Below, in pieces: positions 1-10,315 of a stretch of DNA of 64,000 nt. The notes below the pieces were generated by a model, which searched no databases, had not been told where the DNA came from, and saw only the letters and a program-made list of their open reading frames with translations. Numbering within the stretch: position 1 is the first letter of the stretch; each line of letters opens with the position of its first letter. A program made the position numbers and the translations under genes. Source of the DNA: Nitrospira sp. (GTDB lineage: Bacteria; Nitrospirota; Nitrospiria; Nitrospirales; Nitrospiraceae); NCBI GenBank assembly GCA_015903945.1, contig JABMDL010000004.1, positions 1 through 64,000 on the forward strand, read 5' to 3'.

Positions 1-589
1 GGGAGACATCGCCTGGTTCACAATGGAACTGGACTATACCCGGTACGTTAAGGAAGGCACCGAGCTCAAACGCATGCTGCTCCCATTGCGCGAAACGGGT
101 GTGCTGGAGCGCCGGAATGGACAATGGGTGATGCTGTCGTTTCATGAGTCCTTTCGCTCCGCGCAGATGAACGGCCCCCTGGCCCAATCAAGCGCCTCCT
201 CCGCGCAACAACTTCGGGTGACCAATCCGCCGGCAGCGGCCACGCCGGATGTGAGCGGGGACTGGGATATTCTCGAAGTGGAGGACGAAAAACGCTATAA
301 GGCGACGTTGGACAAGAACGGAAACGGCCCCTACACGCAGCACCAGGGTCGATTCGTTACCACGAAAATTGAAAACCGGCTGTGGCAAGGCACGTGGCAC
401 CAGCCCGGCAACGATCGAGAGGGCGGATTCGAAGTCCTTCTCTCGGAAGACGGCAAGGAAGCCAAGGGCGTCTGGTGGTACACGCGAGTCAAGATGGGTA
501 AAACAGAATATAACAATATTCCACCAAAAGAACGCGGTGGCACCTATCACTGGAAAAAAATACCGCCATCATCGGTTAGCGCCCAATGA
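1..589 (+). CDS. SnoaL-like domain protein with C-terminal beta domain (5' partial)
   Basis: The reading frame is open to the left edge (first full codon at position 2), so the true start lies outside the window; 195 residues are visible. The N-terminal part, with a W-F-T-M strand and a later G-V-L-E-R-R-N-G-Q-W-V strand ending in H-E-S-F, has the look of the end of a SnoaL/NTF2-like cone domain. After a short Ala/Ser/Pro linker comes a second domain rich in W-x-G-x-W and G-G-x-F turns, ending in a W-W-Y strand pattern, probably a small beta barrel. The gene ends about 80 bases before the start of the copper-site protein downstream and may be co-transcribed with it. No function can be assigned. 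Confidence 0.6.
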   Translation, partial: GDIAWFTMELDYTRYVKEGTELKRMLLPLRETGVLERRNGQWVMLSFHESFRSAQMNGPLAQSSASSAQQLRVTNPPAAATPDVSGDWDILEVEDEKRYKATLDKNGNGPYTQHQGRFVTTKIENRLWQGTWHQPGNDREGGFEVLLSEDGKEAKGVWWYTRVKMGKTEYNNIPPKERGGTYHWKKIPPSSVSAQ

Positions 590-669
590 GCCAATCTGTT
601 TCTCTTCTGTCAGACCAACAATTCGGAGTCCGGTTCACCATCACAGCCTTATTTCCTCTGGGAGGACTT

Positions 670-1674
670 ATGTTTAGATCCCTCATTCTTTTTGCCATGA
701 GCGTCTTCATGATCTCATCAGCCTACGCCGATGGGGGACATGAGCACCATGCCGTCCCCACACTGAAGAAGCAGGTCGGCTCGAAGATCACGTATGGAGA
801 AAATACCGCGACCCTCACCTTTGGCCCGATCGATCTTCCCACCGGCCATGGGGAAGGTGACATGGGCGACTCCATGCCTCGATTTAATTTCCAGCTCCCC
901 GAAGACAAGTATTTGATCGGTTTCAAATCCGCCCTGTCTACGGTCGAGGGGAAGGAATTACCGAGAAATTACCTGCACCATATCTTGATGATCAACAACA
1001 CGAGACCCAGCGTCTCCTGCCCTGGCGAACCACTCTTCTTTGGCGGAGCGGGGCTTGAGATGTCCGAAACGCAATTCCCTGACGGATACGGCGTGAAACT
1101 CGCGAAAGATGATAAGCTCATGACGGTCGTCGCCTTCTATCATGGCGCTCCTCCCACCAAGAATGTCATCGCAACCTTCACGATGTACTTTGCGCCGAAG
1201 ACTAAACCGGTCCAGGCCATGGACATCTATCAGGTCGGGGTCAATATCGTCTGTTTCACCAAATTCGGCGATCGCCCGGCGGATCAGACTGATGAGGGAA
1301 TCGAAATCGGGGCCGGCGTTCAAGTTCGTACGGCGCCACTGAAATTCAGCATGGACGGCTGTGTCAAGTATGCCTATCCGCATGGCCATGATGAACTGCT
1401 ATTGATCGCGCTGGAGAACAAGACCAAGAAACAGACCCTTCTCCGGACGGTCCCAGATGTTGAACGGGACGGTACGCTCCGAGAATTCCTGCCTCACCAA
1501 GTCTATAAGGACAGTCAGGGCTTCCAGATTTCGAAGGCGGATGACTATGAAATGGTGATGGTCTACCACCATTCTCTGCAGAAGACTGAACTCCAACACG
1601 GCATGGGGAATTACCTGCTGTACATGACCCCGGGATCCTGCCCGGCAGAGAAGAAGACCGCCTCCGCCTTCTGA
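670..1674 (+). CDS. Secreted PHM-like copper type II monooxygenase-fold protein
   Basis: The start at 670 is chosen because GGAGG sits at 661-665 and the protein then opens with a clean signal peptide ending near A-Y-A-D; the frame is open further upstream but lacks that signal. The product has 334 residues with a His-rich mature N-terminus (H-E-H-H). The rest reproduces the metal-ligand order of peptidylglycine alpha-hydroxylating monooxygenase: H103-H104 in L-H-H-I-L-M, H158 in F-Y-H-G, H238-G-H240, and M312 in H-G-M-G-N-Y. In rat PHM the ligands are H107, H108, H172, H242, H244 and M314. A P-x-G-Y-G-V stretch between the second and third sites also matches. I infer an exported two-copper protein; substrate and activity are unknown, and a purely copper-binding role is possible. 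Confidence 0.68.
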   Translation: MFRSLILFAMSVFMISSAYADGGHEHHAVPTLKKQVGSKITYGENTATLTFGPIDLPTGHGEGDMGDSMPRFNFQLPEDKYLIGFKSALSTVEGKELPRNYLHHILMINNTRPSVSCPGEPLFFGGAGLEMSETQFPDGYGVKLAKDDKLMTVVAFYHGAPPTKNVIATFTMYFAPKTKPVQAMDIYQVGVNIVCFTKFGDRPADQTDEGIEIGAGVQVRTAPLKFSMDGCVKYAYPHGHDELLLIALENKTKKQTLLRTVPDVERDGTLREFLPHQVYKDSQGFQISKADDYEMVMVYHHSLQKTELQHGMGNYLLYMTPGSCPAEKKTASAF

Positions 1675-1902: not shown

Positions 1903-4900
1903 ATGCCGCAGAGTGAGCCCATCTCGATTCTCCTCGTCAACGAGTTCGCCGAAGAAATCAAACTGACCACGCTCGGTTTTCGAGGCTTCTTCCCAAACTG
2001 CCGAATCGAAGCCGTCTACTCCCTGGAGGAAGCGATCCAGTGGGCGCCTCGTGCTGCATGGCATCTCATCCTGCTCGATGACAACCTCCTGACTCAACGG
2101 GCAACATCTATCTTGCCGGAGCTCAAACGACTTGTTCCCGCAGTCGTCCTGGTGTTGCAAACCGAGCGTAGCGACTCCACCTCCGCGCTGAATGCGTTGC
2201 ACGCCGGGGCGGACTTTCTGCTCTACAAGAAATCGCCCGCGTTCCTCACCGAGTTGGTGTTGTACGCACGAGACGCATTTGAAAAACGTGACCTGCGTCT
2301 CACGCTCGATCGAACACAGGAGCGCTACGGCCGACTGGTGGACGCGTTGAACGACGTCGTGTATGAGCTCGATACGGGTGGGCGGTTCACCTACGTGAGT
2401 CCGCTCATTACCAGAATCCTTGGATATTCACAGGAAGAGTTACTCGGGATTCCCTACTCGGTCATTGTGCCGTCAGACCAACTCGATCTGGCCCGACATT
2501 GTTTCAACGACCGGAGAACCGGGACACGGGCATCTCGGCAGATCGAACTGGATCTCATTCGTAAGCCATCCCCAGACTCGCCAAGTCCCGCGCGCATCAG
2601 AATCGAGTTGAGCGCGAAGGGACTCTATGACTCTGAACGGCGGTACCGCGGCGCATTAGGGATCTTGCGCGATGTGTCGCAACACCGCCGCCAAGAAGCA
2701 ACCATTCACCACTTGGAGCATCAGCTGCAAGAAACCGATCGGCTGCTCACTCTTTCTCAACGCCTTTCAACGCTCTCAACACATTTACACGATCCTCACC
2801 AAGCCATTCGCACACAGGCGCAACTCCTGGTCCAATCTATTCGGGAATCCCGGCTGGTGGAACATGCCGAATCGCTGGCGGCCTCTGCAGCTGAAGCGCT
2901 TCGGGTCGGAGCGGACCTCGTCCAGGCTGCAACGGAACTTACCGCCCGCCGAAAAAGCGTGAACGACCTCATCGATACCGTCCTGGCAGCCACTCCCCCT
3001 CCATTTTCGAACACCGGCGGGATCGAACGATCGTATACCCCAACTCTGCCTCCATTCGGGGGAGACTCCGATACGGTCATGCAACTTCTCCGAGTTCTGT
3101 TCTCCTATGCGCAGCGCCATCTTGGAGCGACCGGGAGCCGACATGGTCTTCAAATCAGCACCAGGGTAATCGAACCACCCGGCGCACCAACCGCGCTCGG
3201 CTCCACCTCACGCACACCGGAACCAGCCGCTGAAATTGAAGTACGCCTCCAAGAAACTGACACGACCGTTGCGGAAGAGAGCCCTGCCGATCAGACGCCC
3301 AGCAACATTTTTGACGCCTACACCTTGGTTAAACAATTGGGCGGACGATTAGAGCTGCTCGCCCCGGCCGGAGGGCTTTTCTCGATCACCGTCTGGATTC
3401 CGACGAGATCGACGCCACCGCCCAACAGCGATCCAGGTCCGCCGCCCCTTGCCGTCGCGTGGCCACACACTCACGCCGAGCCTTCATCGGTCGCAGCGCC
3501 TCACACTGAGATTTCCCCTCCTCCACCCCAACCATTATCTTCGCCCGCTCCCCCACCGCTGCCCGATCGCCGCACGCACATTCGCATCGCCACCAGTCTT
3601 CCCGCACGCGTGGCCATCGGAAATACCGTGCGCGAAGGCACCCTGACCGAGTTGAATTCACGTGGAGCCACCGTAGAGCTCGCGGGGCGACTTCCACCGC
3701 TCGCCCAACAACCAGCTCTTTTCACGCTCAAGACTGCTGCGGGCGTATTCGAGTTGCATGCGACCGCTCATGACCGGGGAAGGACCACACAACCAACCAC
3801 AGGAGATGCACCAGCCTCCCGACTGGCGTTCCTGTTCACCGCTCTCACGAACACCGAGGACAAAATCTTGGAGTCCTATGTCGAGGAAGCACGGGGACGG
3901 ACTCTCGATGCAACCGTCGACGTCCTCCTCATGGAATCGGATACGCTGGAACAGCCGGACGCCATCGCGGGCGAATCCCAGTTGCGAGGAACTGACCACC
4001 GAGAAACCTTGAGAGTCCGTGTGACCCTCCCGGTTCGTGTAGGCCTTTCCTCGCTCGGCGAGCGCAGCAAGTCACTGCTGGGCCTCGTCATCAATTTCAG
4101 CCGCGGCGGCCTGTGTTTCCAAACAAGTGCGCCGCTCGGATCCGTAGGAGACCCCATCGCAGTCCATTTTTCCTCGACCAGCCATCTCGGACAGCCACGG
4201 GCGCATGAGCCGGATGTCCCTGAAGCGATCCTGGACGGCCGTATCGTGTACATGACGCCAGACCAGACCGTTCCATCCGAATTGAGAGGTGGCCCCACCC
4301 AACCAGGACAGCGCATCGGTATTCGATTCTTCCGGTTGACGCCCTTCGCGGAACGGGAAATTAACCGAGTCATCGCCCAGCATGTCGGATCTTCCATGAT
4401 TCTGGCCGGTACCGTCGGCCGCTCTTCGATCGTGAGCGCCAGACGGGAATGCCGAAATGTCCGGCATCAAGTCATCGCCGTGACAGATGACCATGCCCGC
4501 CATCAGATCTCACCCACTACGCCGATCGTGATCATCGCTCCAGGATTCGGATTGACACAGACCGATTACCTTCCGCTTTCGTTTTATCTTGCGGCGAACC
4601 GGTTCCGCGTCCTTCGGTACGATCACACGAATCATACAGGGCAAAGCGACGGGGACCTTCTGCAAACCACGCTGCGTGGGATGCAGACAGACCTGCAGGC
4701 TGTCCTGGATTTTGTCGCCACAACCTGGCCGGCCGCGTCACTGACCCTGCTGGCCGAGGATCTCAGCGCCCGTGTTGCCCTCAAAGTGTTGGCTCAGGGC
4801 AAGACGGCGGATCAATTGCTTCTCGTGAATCCTGTTTTCGATATTGAACTGGCGCTTTCTACCCTCTTTCAGACCCCGACGGTTGAACACTACCGGCAGG

Positions 4901-6117
4901 GCGTCCGGAAAGGCATCGCCAATCTTTGGGGCTTGAATATTAATCTTGATCAGTTTATTGGAGACGCGATTGCGGGCGAGTACACCGATATGGCGTCGCT
5001 GGCAACAGACCTGGCCAAACTGGTCTTGAAACCTGTGGTCGTGACTTCTCCGGGACAACATCGTCACCCTCACAGTCTGTTCGGCCCGCAAGACCGGTCC
5101 TTCCGTGCACTTGGCCCCTCGCTCACCATTGTGCCACTGCAGGCAGATCTCTCCAGTGAATCGAACGTCTATGATGACCGCCACGCCGACGCATTCAGAG
5201 CCATCGTGAAATTGATACCGGGCTCAGCGGCAGCAAGCCTTCCCACCATACAGACGAGTGAGCCCACTCAACGAGAAATTCATTACCAACGGCAACTCGA
5301 ACAGGAGCGTATCCGCCTCTGCCATCATGTCTCACAGGCGACGCGTGACGCCCTGTGGGTCGCACAGCTGAATCAGACCTCCAAATTCAGCGACCTGGCG
5401 GACTACCAGTCGCTCCAACACACCATCCACCGGCAGATGCTCCCCCTTTCCCCCGGCATGACAGTCCTCGACATCGGCTGCGGACAGAGCGACTTCGCCT
5501 GCACGCTATTCACCAATCAGCTCTATCACCGCTCCCATCATACCGAGATCTCGGCCTCCCCGCTCAAGTATGTCGGCTTAGACCAGTCTGATGAAACCCT
5601 CACGCATGCAGAACACCGTATCAGCGCCATTCTTGGTGGACTGGGGATGGAGACCGTTTCCCCGTCCATCACGCAATCACTGACCATGAGCTGGCTGCGT
5701 AGCGAGTGGGGGGATTCCCTTCCCCTTACCGACCATTCGATGGACCGGATCCTCTGCCAGATATCCCTGTGCTTCGTCCCATCTCCCTTAAGCTGTGTAC
5801 GGGAGGCCCTTCGGGTCTTGCACCACAATGGTACGCTGGTCCTGACCTGCTTTCAGCCCCACACCGACCTCGCGATCCCGTTCCGTCGCCACCTCCGCGA
5901 TACACACAATGACGAGTCCTGTGCGTCGGCTCAAATTCTCACGCATTTCTTCGGCCGCCTCCGCGAAGCGGTTCGCCATGGCTTACTCCATTGCTACGAA
6001 CGAAATGAGCTTGTCCGCCTGCTCCTTCATGCCGGAGCCGGTCCGATCCAGATTGTTCCCATTCTTGACAACCAGCTCTTGCTTGCCGTCGTCGAGAAGG
6101 GCAAATCTGCTGGCTGA
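1903..6117 (+). CDS. Giant fusion: receiver-PAS-degenerate kinase core-PilZ-PilZ-LuxD-like hydrolase-methyltransferase
   Basis: The protein has 1404 residues from the ATG at 1903; a TTG at 1876 is in frame but overlaps the leader structure. Domains in order: receiver (about 6-130, phospho-Asp D59, but the usual N-terminal acidic pair reads N-E); PAS (about 140-260); a helical and ATPase-like stretch (about 266-503) with neither H-box nor Asn of the N-box, so probably not a kinase; a Pro-rich linker; PilZ 1 (about 555-666, R557xxxR561, second motif imperfect); PilZ 2 (about 696-830, R700xxxR704 and N731-F-S-R-G-G, canonical for c-di-GMP); an alpha/beta hydrolase related to LuxD acyl-transferase (about 873-1106) whose nucleophile position is D953; a class I methyltransferase (motif I at 1188-1195). 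It sits ahead of a two-component pair and an HD-GYP gene. I infer a cytosolic c-di-GMP-responsive adaptor or enzyme; the reaction is unknown. Confidence 0.72.
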   Translation: MPQSEPISILLVNEFAEEIKLTTLGFRGFFPNCRIEAVYSLEEAIQWAPRAAWHLILLDDNLLTQRATSILPELKRLVPAVVLVLQTERSDSTSALNALHAGADFLLYKKSPAFLTELVLYARDAFEKRDLRLTLDRTQERYGRLVDALNDVVYELDTGGRFTYVSPLITRILGYSQEELLGIPYSVIVPSDQLDLARHCFNDRRTGTRASRQIELDLIRKPSPDSPSPARIRIELSAKGLYDSERRYRGALGILRDVSQHRRQEATIHHLEHQLQETDRLLTLSQRLSTLSTHLHDPHQAIRTQAQLLVQSIRESRLVEHAESLAASAAEALRVGADLVQAATELTARRKSVNDLIDTVLAATPPPFSNTGGIERSYTPTLPPFGGDSDTVMQLLRVLFSYAQRHLGATGSRHGLQISTRVIEPPGAPTALGSTSRTPEPAAEIEVRLQETDTTVAEESPADQTPSNIFDAYTLVKQLGGRLELLAPAGGLFSITVWIPTRSTPPPNSDPGPPPLAVAWPHTHAEPSSVAAPHTEISPPPPQPLSSPAPPPLPDRRTHIRIATSLPARVAIGNTVREGTLTELNSRGATVELAGRLPPLAQQPALFTLKTAAGVFELHATAHDRGRTTQPTTGDAPASRLAFLFTALTNTEDKILESYVEEARGRTLDATVDVLLMESDTLEQPDAIAGESQLRGTDHRETLRVRVTLPVRVGLSSLGERSKSLLGLVINFSRGGLCFQTSAPLGSVGDPIAVHFSSTSHLGQPRAHEPDVPEAILDGRIVYMTPDQTVPSELRGGPTQPGQRIGIRFFRLTPFAEREINRVIAQHVGSSMILAGTVGRSSIVSARRECRNVRHQVIAVTDDHARHQISPTTPIVIIAPGFGLTQTDYLPLSFYLAANRFRVLRYDHTNHTGQSDGDLLQTTLRGMQTDLQAVLDFVATTWPAASLTLLAEDLSARVALKVLAQGKTADQLLLVNPVFDIELALSTLFQTPTVEHYRQGVRKGIANLWGLNINLDQFIGDAIAGEYTDMASLATDLAKLVLKPVVVTSPGQHRHPHSLFGPQDRSFRALGPSLTIVPLQADLSSESNVYDDRHADAFRAIVKLIPGSAAASLPTIQTSEPTQREIHYQRQLEQERIRLCHHVSQATRDALWVAQLNQTSKFSDLADYQSLQHTIHRQMLPLSPGMTVLDIGCGQSDFACTLFTNQLYHRSHHTEISASPLKYVGLDQSDETLTHAEHRISAILGGLGMETVSPSITQSLTMSWLRSEWGDSLPLTDHSMDRILCQISLCFVPSPLSCVREALRVLHHNGTLVLTCFQPHTDLAIPFRRHLRDTHNDESCASAQILTHFFGRLREAVRHGLLHCYERNELVRLLLHAGAGPIQIVPILDNQLLLAVVEKGKSAG

Positions 6118-6237
6118 AGCCGCCCTCATTATGTATACTGCGATGTTGGTGATCGGCACCGCGCCTCAGTGCCGGTTCGCCGCATTGTGTCACGCTACGT
6201 GACGCGACGGCCAGCGATTGACTGTTCTCACGCCTGT

Positions 6238-7503
6238 ATGACGGACCAGATTGTCACTCACCTAGCGATAGATCAATCGGCTTCCGAGTCGCTTCAACGC
6301 ATTACCCGATTTTCTCGGGACCTCGGACAACTCACCACGCTCTCTGCCATTGCCCAGCGTGTGCTGTTAGAACTACTGGAGATCGTGCAATACCCAGCTG
6401 GAACGCTCTACCTTGCCGAGCACGAACATGCAGACTTTCGCCGGCTGGTTGAACATGGATCGAACCAGATGCACGCGGCACCGGCTACGCTGTCCTTACA
6501 CCATCCTCTGACCGACCAGCTGATTCGCAACCTGCAGCAGCACAACGATTCTTGCTATGGCCTTCTCAAACCTCAACACGGGGGCTCACTCGCGCTGTCC
6601 GACGATTTTCGTGTTCGCGCGGCGATCCCGCTTGTGAGCAAAGGCCGATTGATTGCAATCGCTCTGCTGCACATGGATACCGCAGCGGACAGCCAGAGTG
6701 TTGAGCATGCCGATCTCTTGACGACCATGGCCCAAATTTCCGCCAACGCCTTGGATTCGATGCTCGTGTACGAAGACCTGCGCCAGTCACAAACCTTGAT
6801 GCGTCGGACAGACCGGCTCCGCTCGCTCGAAACTATAGCGGGAGGGTTTGCCCACGAAATCAGAAATCCGCTGACCTCGATCAAAACGTTTATCCAGCTC
6901 GCACCCGAGCGGAAGGACGACGCCGAATTTATCCGTGATTTCAGCCGAATCGTGCTTGACGACGTCTATCGAATCGAGCGGCTGATCCAGGAAATCCTTG
7001 ACTACGCCCGGTATATGGAGCCGAAACTGACCGAGGAAGATATCAACGATCTCGTCTCGTCGTGCCTGTATTTCATCGACGTCAAAGCCCGCAGCCGAGG
7101 GATCAGGATTGAAAAAGAGTTGGCGTCCGGGCTTCCTCGTGTCATGTTAGATCGGCAACAAATGAAACAAGTGCTCTTGAATTTGTTCTTGAATGCGCTG
7201 GATGCCATCGGCGAACACACGGGCATGCTCCGGGTCAAAACTGCCGCGATGATGAAACCGAAAGGCACCGCCTGGATTCAAGTCGAAGTGGAGGATACGG
7301 GACACGGTATCTCGGCCGCCGATCTCGATCACATTTTCGATCCCTTCTTCACCACGAAACACAAGAGTGGAGAAAACGAAGGCACGGGGCTGGGATTGGC
7401 GATCGCCCATCAAATTATTCGAGAGCACCGGGGCACGATCCAGGTACAGAGCACGGTGGGATCCGGAACAACATTCCGCGTAAATCTCCCATCGATCGCC
7501 TAA
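6238..7503 (+). CDS. GAF-domain sensor histidine kinase (NtrB-like)
   Basis: The protein has 421 residues from the ATG at 6238; a GTG at 6169 would add an Arg-rich tail with no ribosome site. It has no membrane segment. A GAF domain fills about residues 10-190. The DHp helix carries the H-box A-H-E-I-R-N-P-L with H206, followed by a HATPase domain with an N-box (N-L-F-L-N-A-L-D-A), D-T-G-H-G-I and a G-T-G-L-G-L lid. All catalytic motifs look intact. It lies 18 bases before a sigma-54 response regulator, its evident partner, so it should be a cytosolic kinase that autophosphorylates on H206 and passes phosphate to D57 of that regulator. The signal bound by GAF is unknown. Confidence 0.88.
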   Translation: MTDQIVTHLAIDQSASESLQRITRFSRDLGQLTTLSAIAQRVLLELLEIVQYPAGTLYLAEHEHADFRRLVEHGSNQMHAAPATLSLHHPLTDQLIRNLQQHNDSCYGLLKPQHGGSLALSDDFRVRAAIPLVSKGRLIAIALLHMDTAADSQSVEHADLLTTMAQISANALDSMLVYEDLRQSQTLMRRTDRLRSLETIAGGFAHEIRNPLTSIKTFIQLAPERKDDAEFIRDFSRIVLDDVYRIERLIQEILDYARYMEPKLTEEDINDLVSSCLYFIDVKARSRGIRIEKELASGLPRVMLDRQQMKQVLLNLFLNALDAIGEHTGMLRVKTAAMMKPKGTAWIQVEVEDTGHGISAADLDHIFDPFFTTKHKSGENEGTGLGLAIAHQIIREHRGTIQVQSTVGSGTTFRVNLPSIA

Positions 7504-7521: not shown

Positions 7522-8952
7522 GTGGACAGTTCTGACCAAAAGAAACGCGTGCTCCTCATCGACGACGAAGCGCGTGTACGCACCTCTTTGAAGATGGTGC
7601 TGGAACCGTCCTATGACATTCTCCAGGCCGCCGACGCCCAGGAAGGCCTCGACGTCTTTCGAAAAGAAGGGCCGGATCTTGTTCTCCTTGACGTCATTCT
7701 GCCAGGCACCGACGGGCTGGCCGTTCTCCAGACACTGCGTTCAGAAAGCAAGATGGTGCCGGTTATCATGCTCACCGGGACCAAGTCGGTCAAGACCGCT
7801 GTGGACGCCATGAAGCTTGGGGCGGCTGACTATTTATCCAAACCATTCGATGTCGACGAATTACGTATCGTCATCGACCGGGCATTGAATTCTCTGGAGT
7901 TGGAACGTGAAGTCAAACAGCTGCGCAGCCAGGTGGTGCAGCGCTACGCCTTCCACAACCTGATCGGCAAGAGTTCGGGCATGCAGGAAATCTACGCCAA
8001 GATAGAACAGGTCGCAGACAGCCGCACCACCGTCTTGATCACCGGAGAAAGCGGAACGGGGAAAGAACTCGTCGCCAAGGCCTTGCACTACAATAGCTCT
8101 CGCCGAGAACGACCCTTCATCGCCTTGAATTGTGCCGCCCTCCCTGAAACGCTCATTGAAAGCGAGCTGTTCGGGCATGAAAAAGGCTCGTTTACAGACG
8201 CCACTGCGCGGCGCACTGGGCAATTCGAAATGGCCAATACCGGGACTCTATTTCTCGACGAAATCGGCGACCTGAGCCCGGTCACACAAGCCAAACTCCT
8301 CCGGGTGCTGCAGGAGCGTGAGTTTACCAGAATCGGCGGCGTGCAGCCGATCAAAGTCGATGTCCGCATCGTGGCTGCGACCAATAAGAACTTGGATGAG
8401 CTCGTCCGGAAGGGCCAGTTCCGCGAAGATTTATACTACCGCATCAATGTCATCTCACTGTATCTCCCGCCGCTCCGCGATCGCGGTGAGGACATCGCCC
8501 TGCTTGGCAAACACTTCCTGGCCAAGCGCGTGGAGGAGGAAAAGCGCCCGCATATTGAATTTTCGAAGGAAGCATTGGAACTGTTGGTTCGCTATCCCTG
8601 GCCCGGCAACGTCCGAGAACTGGAGAACATCGTCGAACAGGCCTTTATCTGGTCGAACAACGCCGAACACATTGTCCCTGAACATTTGCCTGCCATTCTC
8701 AAAGGTGATGTCAGATCAGCTTCACTTCATGACGATACCATCTCCGGTCGCCTGTCTCTTGAGAAGGCCGTCATGGAATTCGAACGTGAGATTATCCTAG
8801 ACGCGCTGAAACGGACTAACTACGTACAAACCCACGCCGCCAACTTGCTGGGAATCAGCCGCCGAATGTTGAAATACCGTATGGATTCGCTTGGCATTAG
8901 CCGCATGGACCGGGACCCGACCTCGGAGCCCGATCCCGCAGTGCAAGAATGA
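7522..8952 (+). CDS. NtrC-family sigma-54 response regulator
   Basis: It starts at GTG 7522 with a GGAGAG site about 8 bases upstream. The 476 residues hold a receiver (D57 in L-L-D-V-I-L-P, with the D-D pair near residue 14), a central AAA+ domain (Walker A G-E-S-G-T-G-K-E, Walker B L-F-L-D-E-I-G-D) and a C-terminal Fis-type helix-turn-helix. The sigma-54 contact loop reads G-S-F-T-D-A where the textbook form is G-A-F-T-G-A; this variant is common in a subset of the family, so activity is expected. It forms a two-component system with the kinase just upstream. Target promoters cannot be named from this window. Confidence 0.93.
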   Translation: MDSSDQKKRVLLIDDEARVRTSLKMVLEPSYDILQAADAQEGLDVFRKEGPDLVLLDVILPGTDGLAVLQTLRSESKMVPVIMLTGTKSVKTAVDAMKLGAADYLSKPFDVDELRIVIDRALNSLELEREVKQLRSQVVQRYAFHNLIGKSSGMQEIYAKIEQVADSRTTVLITGESGTGKELVAKALHYNSSRRERPFIALNCAALPETLIESELFGHEKGSFTDATARRTGQFEMANTGTLFLDEIGDLSPVTQAKLLRVLQEREFTRIGGVQPIKVDVRIVAATNKNLDELVRKGQFREDLYYRINVISLYLPPLRDRGEDIALLGKHFLAKRVEEEKRPHIEFSKEALELLVRYPWPGNVRELENIVEQAFIWSNNAEHIVPEHLPAILKGDVRSASLHDDTISGRLSLEKAVMEFEREIILDALKRTNYVQTHAANLLGISRRMLKYRMDSLGISRMDRDPTSEPDPAVQE

Positions 8953-9166: not shown

Positions 9167-10315
9167 ATGCCGTCCCACACAGATTTGAACAAGCCAACCG
9201 TACTCGTCATCGACGACGAAGCCGGTCCACGCGATGCGCTCAAAGTAATCCTCCGCCCATTTTTCAACGTCCAATCAGCAGAGAACGCCTGTGCGGCGCT
9301 CGACATTCTCAGTCGGCACCCCGTTGATCTCATCACCCTCGACCAGAAACTTCCCGACCGCCACGGCATGGACCTCCTGAAGGAAATCAGACAGGCCCAT
9401 GCCGACACCGAGGTGATCATTGTGACCGGCTATGGCAGCCTCAAATCCGCCATGGACGGCATTCGCTACGGAGCCGCGGGATACCTGCTGAAGCCGTTCA
9501 ATGTGACGGAGCTTATTACACTCATCAATCACACGCTCGAAAAGAAACGGCGGCTCGATTTTATTCGCAAGTTCTTTCAGTCGTCACCGGATCTCTGGGG
9601 AACCGAGCAGGAAAGTGCTCACGCCTGGCAGGCGCTCCAGTCTGGCTACGCGGCAGCTGGTGCAGATAAACAGGGACCGGCCCCTGTTTCAGGTACAGAC
9701 CTCGGATTGCTTCCACTTCTCTCTGACATTCTGGAGGCGACGGACAGAAACTTATTGAATCACTCAAGCCGGGTGAGTTTCTACGCGACCTTGATAGGGA
9801 ATCGCCTTAATTTGGGGAGTGAAGAGCAAAAGTCTTTAACGATGGGCGCCTTTCTACATGACATCGGAAAATCCGGGATTGGACCCCATCACTTCCCTGA
9901 GGGCCAACGCAAAGCTTCATCAGATTCCACGGACACGGACATCCGTAAGAACCATCCTGATAAAGGCGCCCAGCTGGTTCGCCATGCCGGCCTGTCAGCG
10001 GAGATAAGTCAGATCATTCTCTGCCATCACGAACGATGGGATGGACACGGTTATCCCCAAGGCCTCCAGGGAGAGGGCATTCCCCTTCTGGCTCGGATCG
10101 TCGCCCTTGCGCAGACCTTTGATCATCTCACTGCGGATCCAACGGCTTCGTCTCCCCTGTCCATAGATGAGGCCCTCGACCGTATTTCCAGCCAAGCCCA
10201 CACCTATTTCGATCCCAGGTTAACCAACTTATTTATTCAAGTCATCAATGAGTGCAAGCATTCCCTTCCCCCAATGGCCGTCGCGGCGACCACTGCCGAG
10301 AGCCGCAAGGCGTAA
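9167..10315 (+). CDS. Response regulator with HD-GYP c-di-GMP phosphodiesterase domain
   Basis: The protein has 382 residues and a CGGAG site about 11 bases before the ATG. Receiver at about 5-125, with D59 as phospho-acceptor and a canonical K in Y-L-L-K-P-F. HD-GYP domain at about 185-360: H231-D232 in L-H-D-I-G-K and, around 287-297, H-H-E-R-W-D-G-H-G-Y-P. Both metal and GYP motifs are intact, so hydrolysis of cyclic-di-GMP under control of receiver phosphorylation is expected. Its nearness to the NtrBC-like pair and to the PilZ-containing fusion suggests one c-di-GMP circuit, although no GGDEF cyclase lies in the window. Confidence 0.88.
   Translation: MPSHTDLNKPTVLVIDDEAGPRDALKVILRPFFNVQSAENACAALDILSRHPVDLITLDQKLPDRHGMDLLKEIRQAHADTEVIIVTGYGSLKSAMDGIRYGAAGYLLKPFNVTELITLINHTLEKKRRLDFIRKFFQSSPDLWGTEQESAHAWQALQSGYAAAGADKQGPAPVSGTDLGLLPLLSDILEATDRNLLNHSSRVSFYATLIGNRLNLGSEEQKSLTMGAFLHDIGKSGIGPHHFPEGQRKASSDSTDTDIRKNHPDKGAQLVRHAGLSAEISQIILCHHERWDGHGYPQGLQGEGIPLLARIVALAQTFDHLTADPTASSPLSIDEALDRISSQAHTYFDPRLTNLFIQVINECKHSLPPMAVAATTAESRKA

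Follow-up and report, generated by a model that had tools for sequence, protein, structure and literature searches.

The genus Nitrospira comprises key nitrite oxidisers and comammox organisms, which are difficult to cultivate. Cell-cell signalling as described for them is acyl-homoserine lactone quorum sensing, for which a link to GGDEF/EAL proteins was reported (PMC8553950). A different kind of signal is made by the phcBSRQ system of Ralstonia, whose operon, according to PMC8578825, encodes the methyltransferase PhcB as synthase of methyl 3-hydroxymyristate (3-hydroxypalmitic acid methyl ester, 3-OH PAME, in other strains), the kinase PhcS as its sensor and two receiver-domain proteins. Further points of reference are Vibrio LuxD, a myristoyl-acyl carrier protein (ACP) thioesterase (PDB 1THT), the kinase-regulator pair PrsK/PrsR of XrtA/PEP-CTERM exopolysaccharide systems, and the cyanobacterial long-chain acyl-ACP reductase (PDB 6JZU). 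The gene described here lies at positions 1903-6117 of a 64,000-nucleotide stretch (the window; contig JABMDL010000004.1, positions 1 to 64,000, assembly GCA_015903945.1) of a Nitrospira genome whose closest named relative is Nitrospira sp. UBA2082 (94% identity). It encodes a 1404-residue protein, the long protein, in which a receiver-like domain, a PAS domain, a histidine-kinase relic, two PilZ domains, a LuxD-like hydrolase and a methyltransferase follow one another. As the major outcome, the hydrolase has lost its catalytic triad and adjoins a soluble kinase, and relatives with an intact triad almost always stand beside a membrane-bound one.

The gene is a single uninterrupted frame with zero internal stops on the forward strand, whereby a longer alternative start (TTG at 1876) exists and the conserved start is the ATG at 1903 (MPQSEP). 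An initial annotation, made from the letters alone, had proposed one protein with this list and order of domains, and both the Pfam scan and residue alignments agree with it: PAS (1.4e-10), PilZ twice (3.8e-9), the LuxD-type Acyl_transf_2 (3.8e-12) and a methyltransferase (2.6e-10) were found above curated cut-offs, and the hydrolase was recovered by an AlphaFold2 model as well. The residues it had named, namely D59, R557xxxR561, R700xxxR704 with N731-F-S-R-G-G, and methyltransferase motif I at 1188, were all located at the positions claimed. Matches to the long protein were identified in 39 of 79 genomes of the genus and in 120 of 175 of the family Nitrospiraceae, most of them being single frames roughly 1400 residues long that share 31-94% identity. 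Since full-length frames recur in many independent genomes of genus and family, the fusion is real, and a frameshift or fusion artefact, which would have split the gene, is ruled out. No described protein with such an architecture was found in the searched literature (open-licence papers), in which none joins PilZ with LuxD, nor Nitrospira with PilZ, receiver and methyltransferase. In a search of plasmids, an annotated acyl transferase (H1) matched at 28.7% and methyltransferases matched weakly, but no full-length relative was returned.

Among described proteins, LuxD is the best match of the hydrolase in sequence and in fold. Family membership by sequence is given by 46.5 bits with the Acyl_transf_2 model (cut-off 20.3), and the cut-off of the NCBIfam LuxD equivalog was missed (43.5 vs 420 bits). 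The AlphaFold2 model of residues 545-1404 (mean predicted local distance difference test score, pLDDT, of 80) supported the fold assignment, with V. harveyi LuxD (1THT) as the best PDB match of the hydrolase (Z 23.4 over 269 residues). As other alpha/beta hydrolases score within about 2 Z units of 1THT, sequence and structure jointly underpin the assignment to LuxD. Unlike LuxD, the domain is fused to signalling and methyltransferase domains and is devoid of the S114-D211-H241 triad, whereby Ser114 is replaced by Asp953 and the equivalents of Asp211 and His241 are lost. In the family alignment, every long form examined has lost the nucleophile, and neither the acid nor the His position is conserved; the nucleophile position of this dead lineage is occupied by a near-invariant Asp, the exceptions being L052 and L069, which have Gly. 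Because nucleophile, acid and base are all lost, acyl chemistry by the hydrolase is judged very unlikely, and on these residues the domain is very probably a pseudoenzyme. A bioluminescence-type fatty acid reductase was considered and ruled out, as no LuxC match was found in the genome carrying the long protein.

Relatives were surveyed within Nitrospirota, whereby genes were called by a longest-open-reading-frame rule, many genomes are drafts, and membrane segments were counted by hydropathy and subsequently checked by Pfam on representatives. A shorter form of about 930 residues (PilZ-PilZ-LuxD-methyltransferase) and other variants were identified in family, order and phylum, and according to the alignment these relatives keep Ser, Asp and His together with intact S-adenosylmethionine (SAM) motifs. 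In one short form (L065) these residues align exactly with S114, D211 and H241 of LuxD, and the AlphaFold2 model of the active core (mean pLDDT 86) again has 1THT as its best PDB match (Z 30.9 over 281 residues). Where the triad is intact, the next gene on the same strand encodes a seven-transmembrane (7TM)-type kinase, or is fused to it, in 24 of 25 testable loci; such kinases were called by the domains HisKA_7TM, GAF, HisKA and HATPase where Pfam-scanned, and elsewhere by sequence similarity and predicted membrane segments. At more distant loci (L121-L123) the next gene encodes a hybrid kinase with membrane segments. Where the triad is dead (27 testable loci), a soluble kinase was found in 24 and no kinase gene in 3.

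Several gene arrangements met in this survey deserve description in their own right. At L064 (5383-10308, forward strand), PilZ-PilZ-LuxD-methyltransferase and a 7TM-GAF-histidine kinase are fused into a single frame of 1641 residues. L072 (0-5913, reverse strand) encodes a receiver-PAS-PilZ-methyltransferase protein that has no LuxD domain; genes for a distinct PilZ-FabH-like protein and for a 7TM-type kinase come next, so that the acyl enzyme appears to have been swapped there. L119 (853-9173, forward strand) holds a ketoacyl synthase, LuxD-methyltransferase, a 7TM kinase, a second kinase and a receiver protein in a row; a gene of the same position and size as this upstream ketoacyl synthase is present at L120, and an acyl-CoA (coenzyme A) dehydrogenase is found in the same setting at L121. 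The genome carrying the long protein itself contains, at L129 (G000:C11, 4428-8414, reverse strand), a PilZ-like and long-chain acyl-ACP-reductase protein of 580 residues directly followed by a 7TM-GAF histidine kinase of 744 residues, an order held in 8/8 Nitrospiraceae genomes where it was found (this one and seven others). The reductase is a homologue of PDB 6JZU (E 2.6e-20), but differs from it by an N-terminal PilZ-like domain, whose match lies under the Pfam cut-off, and by its place in a signalling gene pair.

A tree built from the hydrolase-methyltransferase core without the triad columns separates dead from intact forms by one change on the best tree (72% bootstrap), and the triad was probably lost once. 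That triad loss and 7TM loss are correlated as independent events was considered and dismissed, since the tree shows one change only; no statistics are claimed. One relative (L074), whose locus is truncated where its contig ends, has a partly broken triad. Among the intact forms, L060, L061 and L063 carry the receiver-PAS front end, with the acidic pair of the receiver missing there too, and this front end is therefore older than the triad loss.

The long protein is under purifying selection. Compared with UBA2082, the ratio of nonsynonymous to synonymous substitution rates (dN/dS) is 0.04 in the N-terminal half of the hydrolase; receiver and PilZ 2 follow with 0.08, and values of 0.35-0.45 were obtained for the ATPase relic, PilZ 1 and the methyltransferase, the latter having the highest value among folded domains (0.45). 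Pooled over 12 other long-form pairs, values of 0.08 and 0.185 were obtained for the N- and C-terminal halves of the hydrolase and 0.156 for the methyltransferase; the corresponding values of the active forms are 0.10, 0.09 and 0.10. The dead hydrolase is thus not decaying freely, as its N-terminal half, which holds the pseudo-active site, has the lowest dN/dS of the whole protein and is under the strongest constraint.

The domains in front of the hydrolase are likewise only partly canonical. The receiver-like domain scores under the Pfam Response_reg cut-off (21.8 vs 30.2 bits) and keeps the phospho-acceptor D59 and the conserved K109, while N13-E14 stands where the metal-binding acidic pair is expected. 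Across 47 aligned full-length sequences the Asp is kept, the Lys is usually kept and the acidic pair is absent. Since the metal-binding acids are absent in every receiver-PAS relative examined, canonical phosphorylation is doubtful. The annotation had further called the kinase core dead, which agrees with a Pfam scan of the long protein in which the HisKA and HATPase models found no match, and with the absence of an H-box histidine and an N-box from the region. Among the 47 sequences, one (L052) retains the H-box-like AHELSSPL, and a few others have a His at or beside the position. A canonical hybrid histidine kinase was thus ruled out, H-box, N-box and receiver acidic pair all being absent. 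For c-di-GMP (cyclic di-GMP) binding, the receptor motifs RxxxR and (D/N)xSxxG are both present in PilZ 2, whereas PilZ 1 has RxxxR only; the relatives usually have both motifs in both domains. The degenerate second motif of PilZ 1 and the missing acidic pair of the receiver had both escaped the annotation. PilZ 2 may convey c-di-GMP input, and the long protein may serve as a scaffold, as the annotation had suggested.

The methyltransferase has motif I (VLDIGCG) and the beta-2 acidic residue (GLD) of class I SAM methyltransferases, and both are intact in the genus of the long protein and eroded in sister genera (L039 series, L047). The idea put forward in the annotation, that acyl/methyl chemistry is gated by phosphorylation and c-di-GMP, therefore survives in part: its acyl component falls with the triad and phosphorylation is doubtful as the metal-binding acids are absent, whereas the SAM motif of the methyltransferase is in place.

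The long gene is embedded in a syntenic order of genes encoding an RNase H-like protein, a PP2C phosphatase, a SnoaL-like protein, c3, the long protein, the soluble kinase, an NtrC-type regulator and a receiver-HD-GYP protein, followed by recN on the opposite strand (coordinates in the table below). An intact kinase and an enzyme predicted from its sequence to degrade c-di-GMP hence adjoin the long gene; the motif HHExxDGxGYP is found in the HD-GYP neighbour across loci, and the genome has 5 GGDEF matches. The kinase-regulator pair is related in sequence to PrsK/PrsR, which likewise combine a membrane-GAF-HisKA kinase with an NtrC-type regulator, but scores are far under the NCBIfam cut-offs and the neighbours here are acyl enzymes; for PrsK (TIGR02916, 300 bits) the L008 orthologue of the window kinase reached 132.7 and the L065 kinase 150 bits. 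The upstream protein c3 matches no Pfam or NCBIfam model and is highly conserved (close relatives share 85-91% identity), and its gene is still found near the kinase where the long gene was lost. A GC-rich inverted repeat, GGGCCTGCCGG...CCGGCAGGCCC, is situated at 1688-1720 between c3 and the long gene and is a possible terminator, so that the long gene may be transcribed from a separate promoter within the 228-base-pair gap. A sigma-54 promoter (TGGCAC-N5-TTGCW) had no match in the window at up to one mismatch.

Table. Positions in the window of the long gene, its domains and its neighbours, with the basis of each assignment.
Feature	Position	Strand	Basis
Conserved protein c3, without Pfam match	586..1674	+	Synteny, upstream in same gene order
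Long-form protein gene, 1404 residues (receiver-PAS-kinase relic-PilZ-PilZ-dead LuxD-like-methyltransferase)	1903..6117	+	Open frame; full length conserved across Nitrospiraceae
Receiver-like domain with D59 and K109, N13-E14 in place of the acidic pair	1921..2256	+	Pfam, alignment
PAS domain	2323..2688	+	Pfam PAS 1.4e-10
Histidine-kinase relic, no phospho-acceptor His, no N-box	2689..3423	+	No Pfam HisKA/HATPase; alignment; weak sequence match to FixL-type kinase chains
PilZ domain 1, RxxxR kept, second motif degenerate (E-L-N-S-R-G)	3559..3912	+	Pfam, alignment
PilZ domain 2, R700xxxR704 and N-F-S-R-G-G, canonical	3988..4383	+	Pfam, alignment
LuxD-like alpha/beta hydrolase domain, catalytic triad lost	4450..5232	+	Pfam Acyl_transf_2 3.8e-12; 1THT alignment; fold; family alignment
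Codon of Asp953, at position of LuxD nucleophile Ser114	4759..4761	+	phmmer alignment to 1THT; near-invariant Asp in dead lineage
Class I SAM methyltransferase domain, motif I VLDIGCG intact	5392..6114	+	Pfam; alignment
Soluble GAF-HisKA-HATPase histidine kinase, H, N and G boxes intact	6169..7503	+	Pfam on L008 orthologue; motifs
NtrC-type sigma-54-dependent response regulator	7522..8952	+	Pfam on L008 orthologue
Response regulator with HD-GYP (HHERWDGHGYP), predicted c-di-GMP phosphodiesterase	9167..10315	+	Sequence; Pfam HD_5 on L008 orthologue; motif across loci

The reading favoured here, tentatively and at somewhat less than even confidence, is that the long protein descends from a fatty-acyl enzyme, is no longer catalytic and now serves as ligand and c-di-GMP input to a soluble kinase. 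Its ancestor would have been an enzyme of the architecture PilZ-PilZ-LuxD-methyltransferase, which removed acyl chains from a thioester, its product probably being methylated. It would have adjoined a membrane-bound (7TM-GAF) histidine kinase, with the enzyme most likely as synthase of a signal and the kinase as its receptor. Within the Nitrospira lineage, the hydrolase would have lost its triad and the partner kinase its membrane sensor, whereby the receiver-PAS front end, which some active relatives already possess, would have been retained with the kinase relic behind it. At present the protein would most likely act as an accessory intracellular input: PilZ 2 may bind c-di-GMP, the constrained pseudo-active site containing Asp953 may bind an acyl ligand or ACP, and the bound state may adjust the adjacent soluble GAF kinase, which in turn would drive the NtrC regulator and the HD-GYP phosphodiesterase. 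This reading starts from architecture, triad loss, intact relatives, 7TM pairing, conserved operon and purifying selection, each read from sequence, and from there we infer that the active relatives synthesise a signal and that the long protein binds a ligand and is coupled to the kinase. Several observations weigh against it. As the triad was lost in one step according to the tree, the coincidence of this step with the loss of the 7TM sensor is one event and has no statistical weight. One intact-triad locus (L109, the exception among the 25) has no adjacent kinase, and since Pfam recognises no PilZ in many active relatives of the f2 family (L112), gating by c-di-GMP is not universal. Finally, the soluble kinase is kept in all 12 same-genus genomes without the long form that were checked, and the long gene was cleanly lost in 11 of them (c3 lying about 300-350 bases from the kinase; exception G001). 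Because the kinase persists where the long gene dropped out, the long protein is an accessory of the kinase and not a requirement.

The same clean loss from the operon, together with the number of catalytically dead domains, could be taken to mean that the long gene no longer has a function and is slowly decaying as a relic. This is very improbable, as a full-length frame was retained across many genera and dN/dS is well under 1 everywhere, reaching its minimum in the very half that holds the pseudo-active site. That constraint would equally be expected if the dead hydrolase served as substrate binder of a protein which is still an enzyme by virtue of its methyltransferase, methylating a fatty acid or acyl-ACP made by others under regulation by the N-terminal domains; the SAM motifs intact in the genus speak for such a function, yet their erosion in sister genera of the same architecture and the dN/dS of 0.45 against UBA2082 (though 0.16 in other pairs) make it unlikely. 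More remote still is a hydrolase of changed chemistry, in which Asp953 would work as nucleophile like the Asp of haloalkane dehalogenases and epoxide hydrolases. The near-invariance of this Asp across the dead lineage would fit, but the C-terminal half keeps no conserved His or acid to complete the mechanism and is relaxed as compared to the active forms (0.185 vs 0.09), and L052 and L069 do with Gly, so that this is scarcely to be believed. A further alternative concerns the active relatives, which may be no signal synthases at all, LuxD-methyltransferase and 7TM kinase rather forming a module for lipid stress or membrane-lipid modification of which the long protein is a relic. LuxD (1THT) is indeed a metabolic thioesterase, the partner kinase resembles PrsK of exopolysaccharide systems (under the NCBIfam cut-off), and secretion and sensing of a product are putative; against this, differing acyl-ACP-consuming enzymes pair with similar 7TM kinases, for which the rule that the enzyme makes the ligand of the kinase is the better fit, and the lipid module was rated as rather unlikely.

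For the signalling reading, phcBSRQ is the closest parallel, compared here by description and as a functional analogy: it likewise places a synthase methyltransferase beside a sensor kinase and receiver proteins, and PilZ and LuxD domains are not described for PhcB in the consulted part of PMC8578825. A synthase beside a membrane kinase is not what the window locus offers, its kinase being soluble, but it is what the intact-triad relatives have. The operons L119 and L120 resemble phcBSRQ in gene order: the acyl-methyltransferase enzyme is followed by a 7TM kinase, then by another kinase and a receiver protein, whereby L119 has a chain-building enzyme (the ketoacyl synthase) in addition.

Extending the comparison, it is possible, if distinctly uncertain, that Nitrospirota hold an undescribed signalling class, in which acyl-thioester-consuming enzymes (LuxD-methyltransferase, FabH-like, acyl-ACP reductase), often with PilZ, are paired genetically with 7TM-GAF kinases and produce the fatty-acyl-derived signal which these kinases sense, its synthesis being partly controlled by c-di-GMP. 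The long protein would be a "pseudo-synthase" of this class, its active site having been converted to sensing a ligand inside the cell as the partner kinase was deprived of its membrane receptor. For annotation it follows that dead-lineage copies named acyl transferase probably do no acyl chemistry. If the proposal holds true, the long protein would illustrate how a signal synthase becomes a regulatory pseudoenzyme, and the pair of acyl-thioester enzyme and 7TM kinase, often with PilZ, would constitute a second, so far unrecognised signalling route in Nitrospira.

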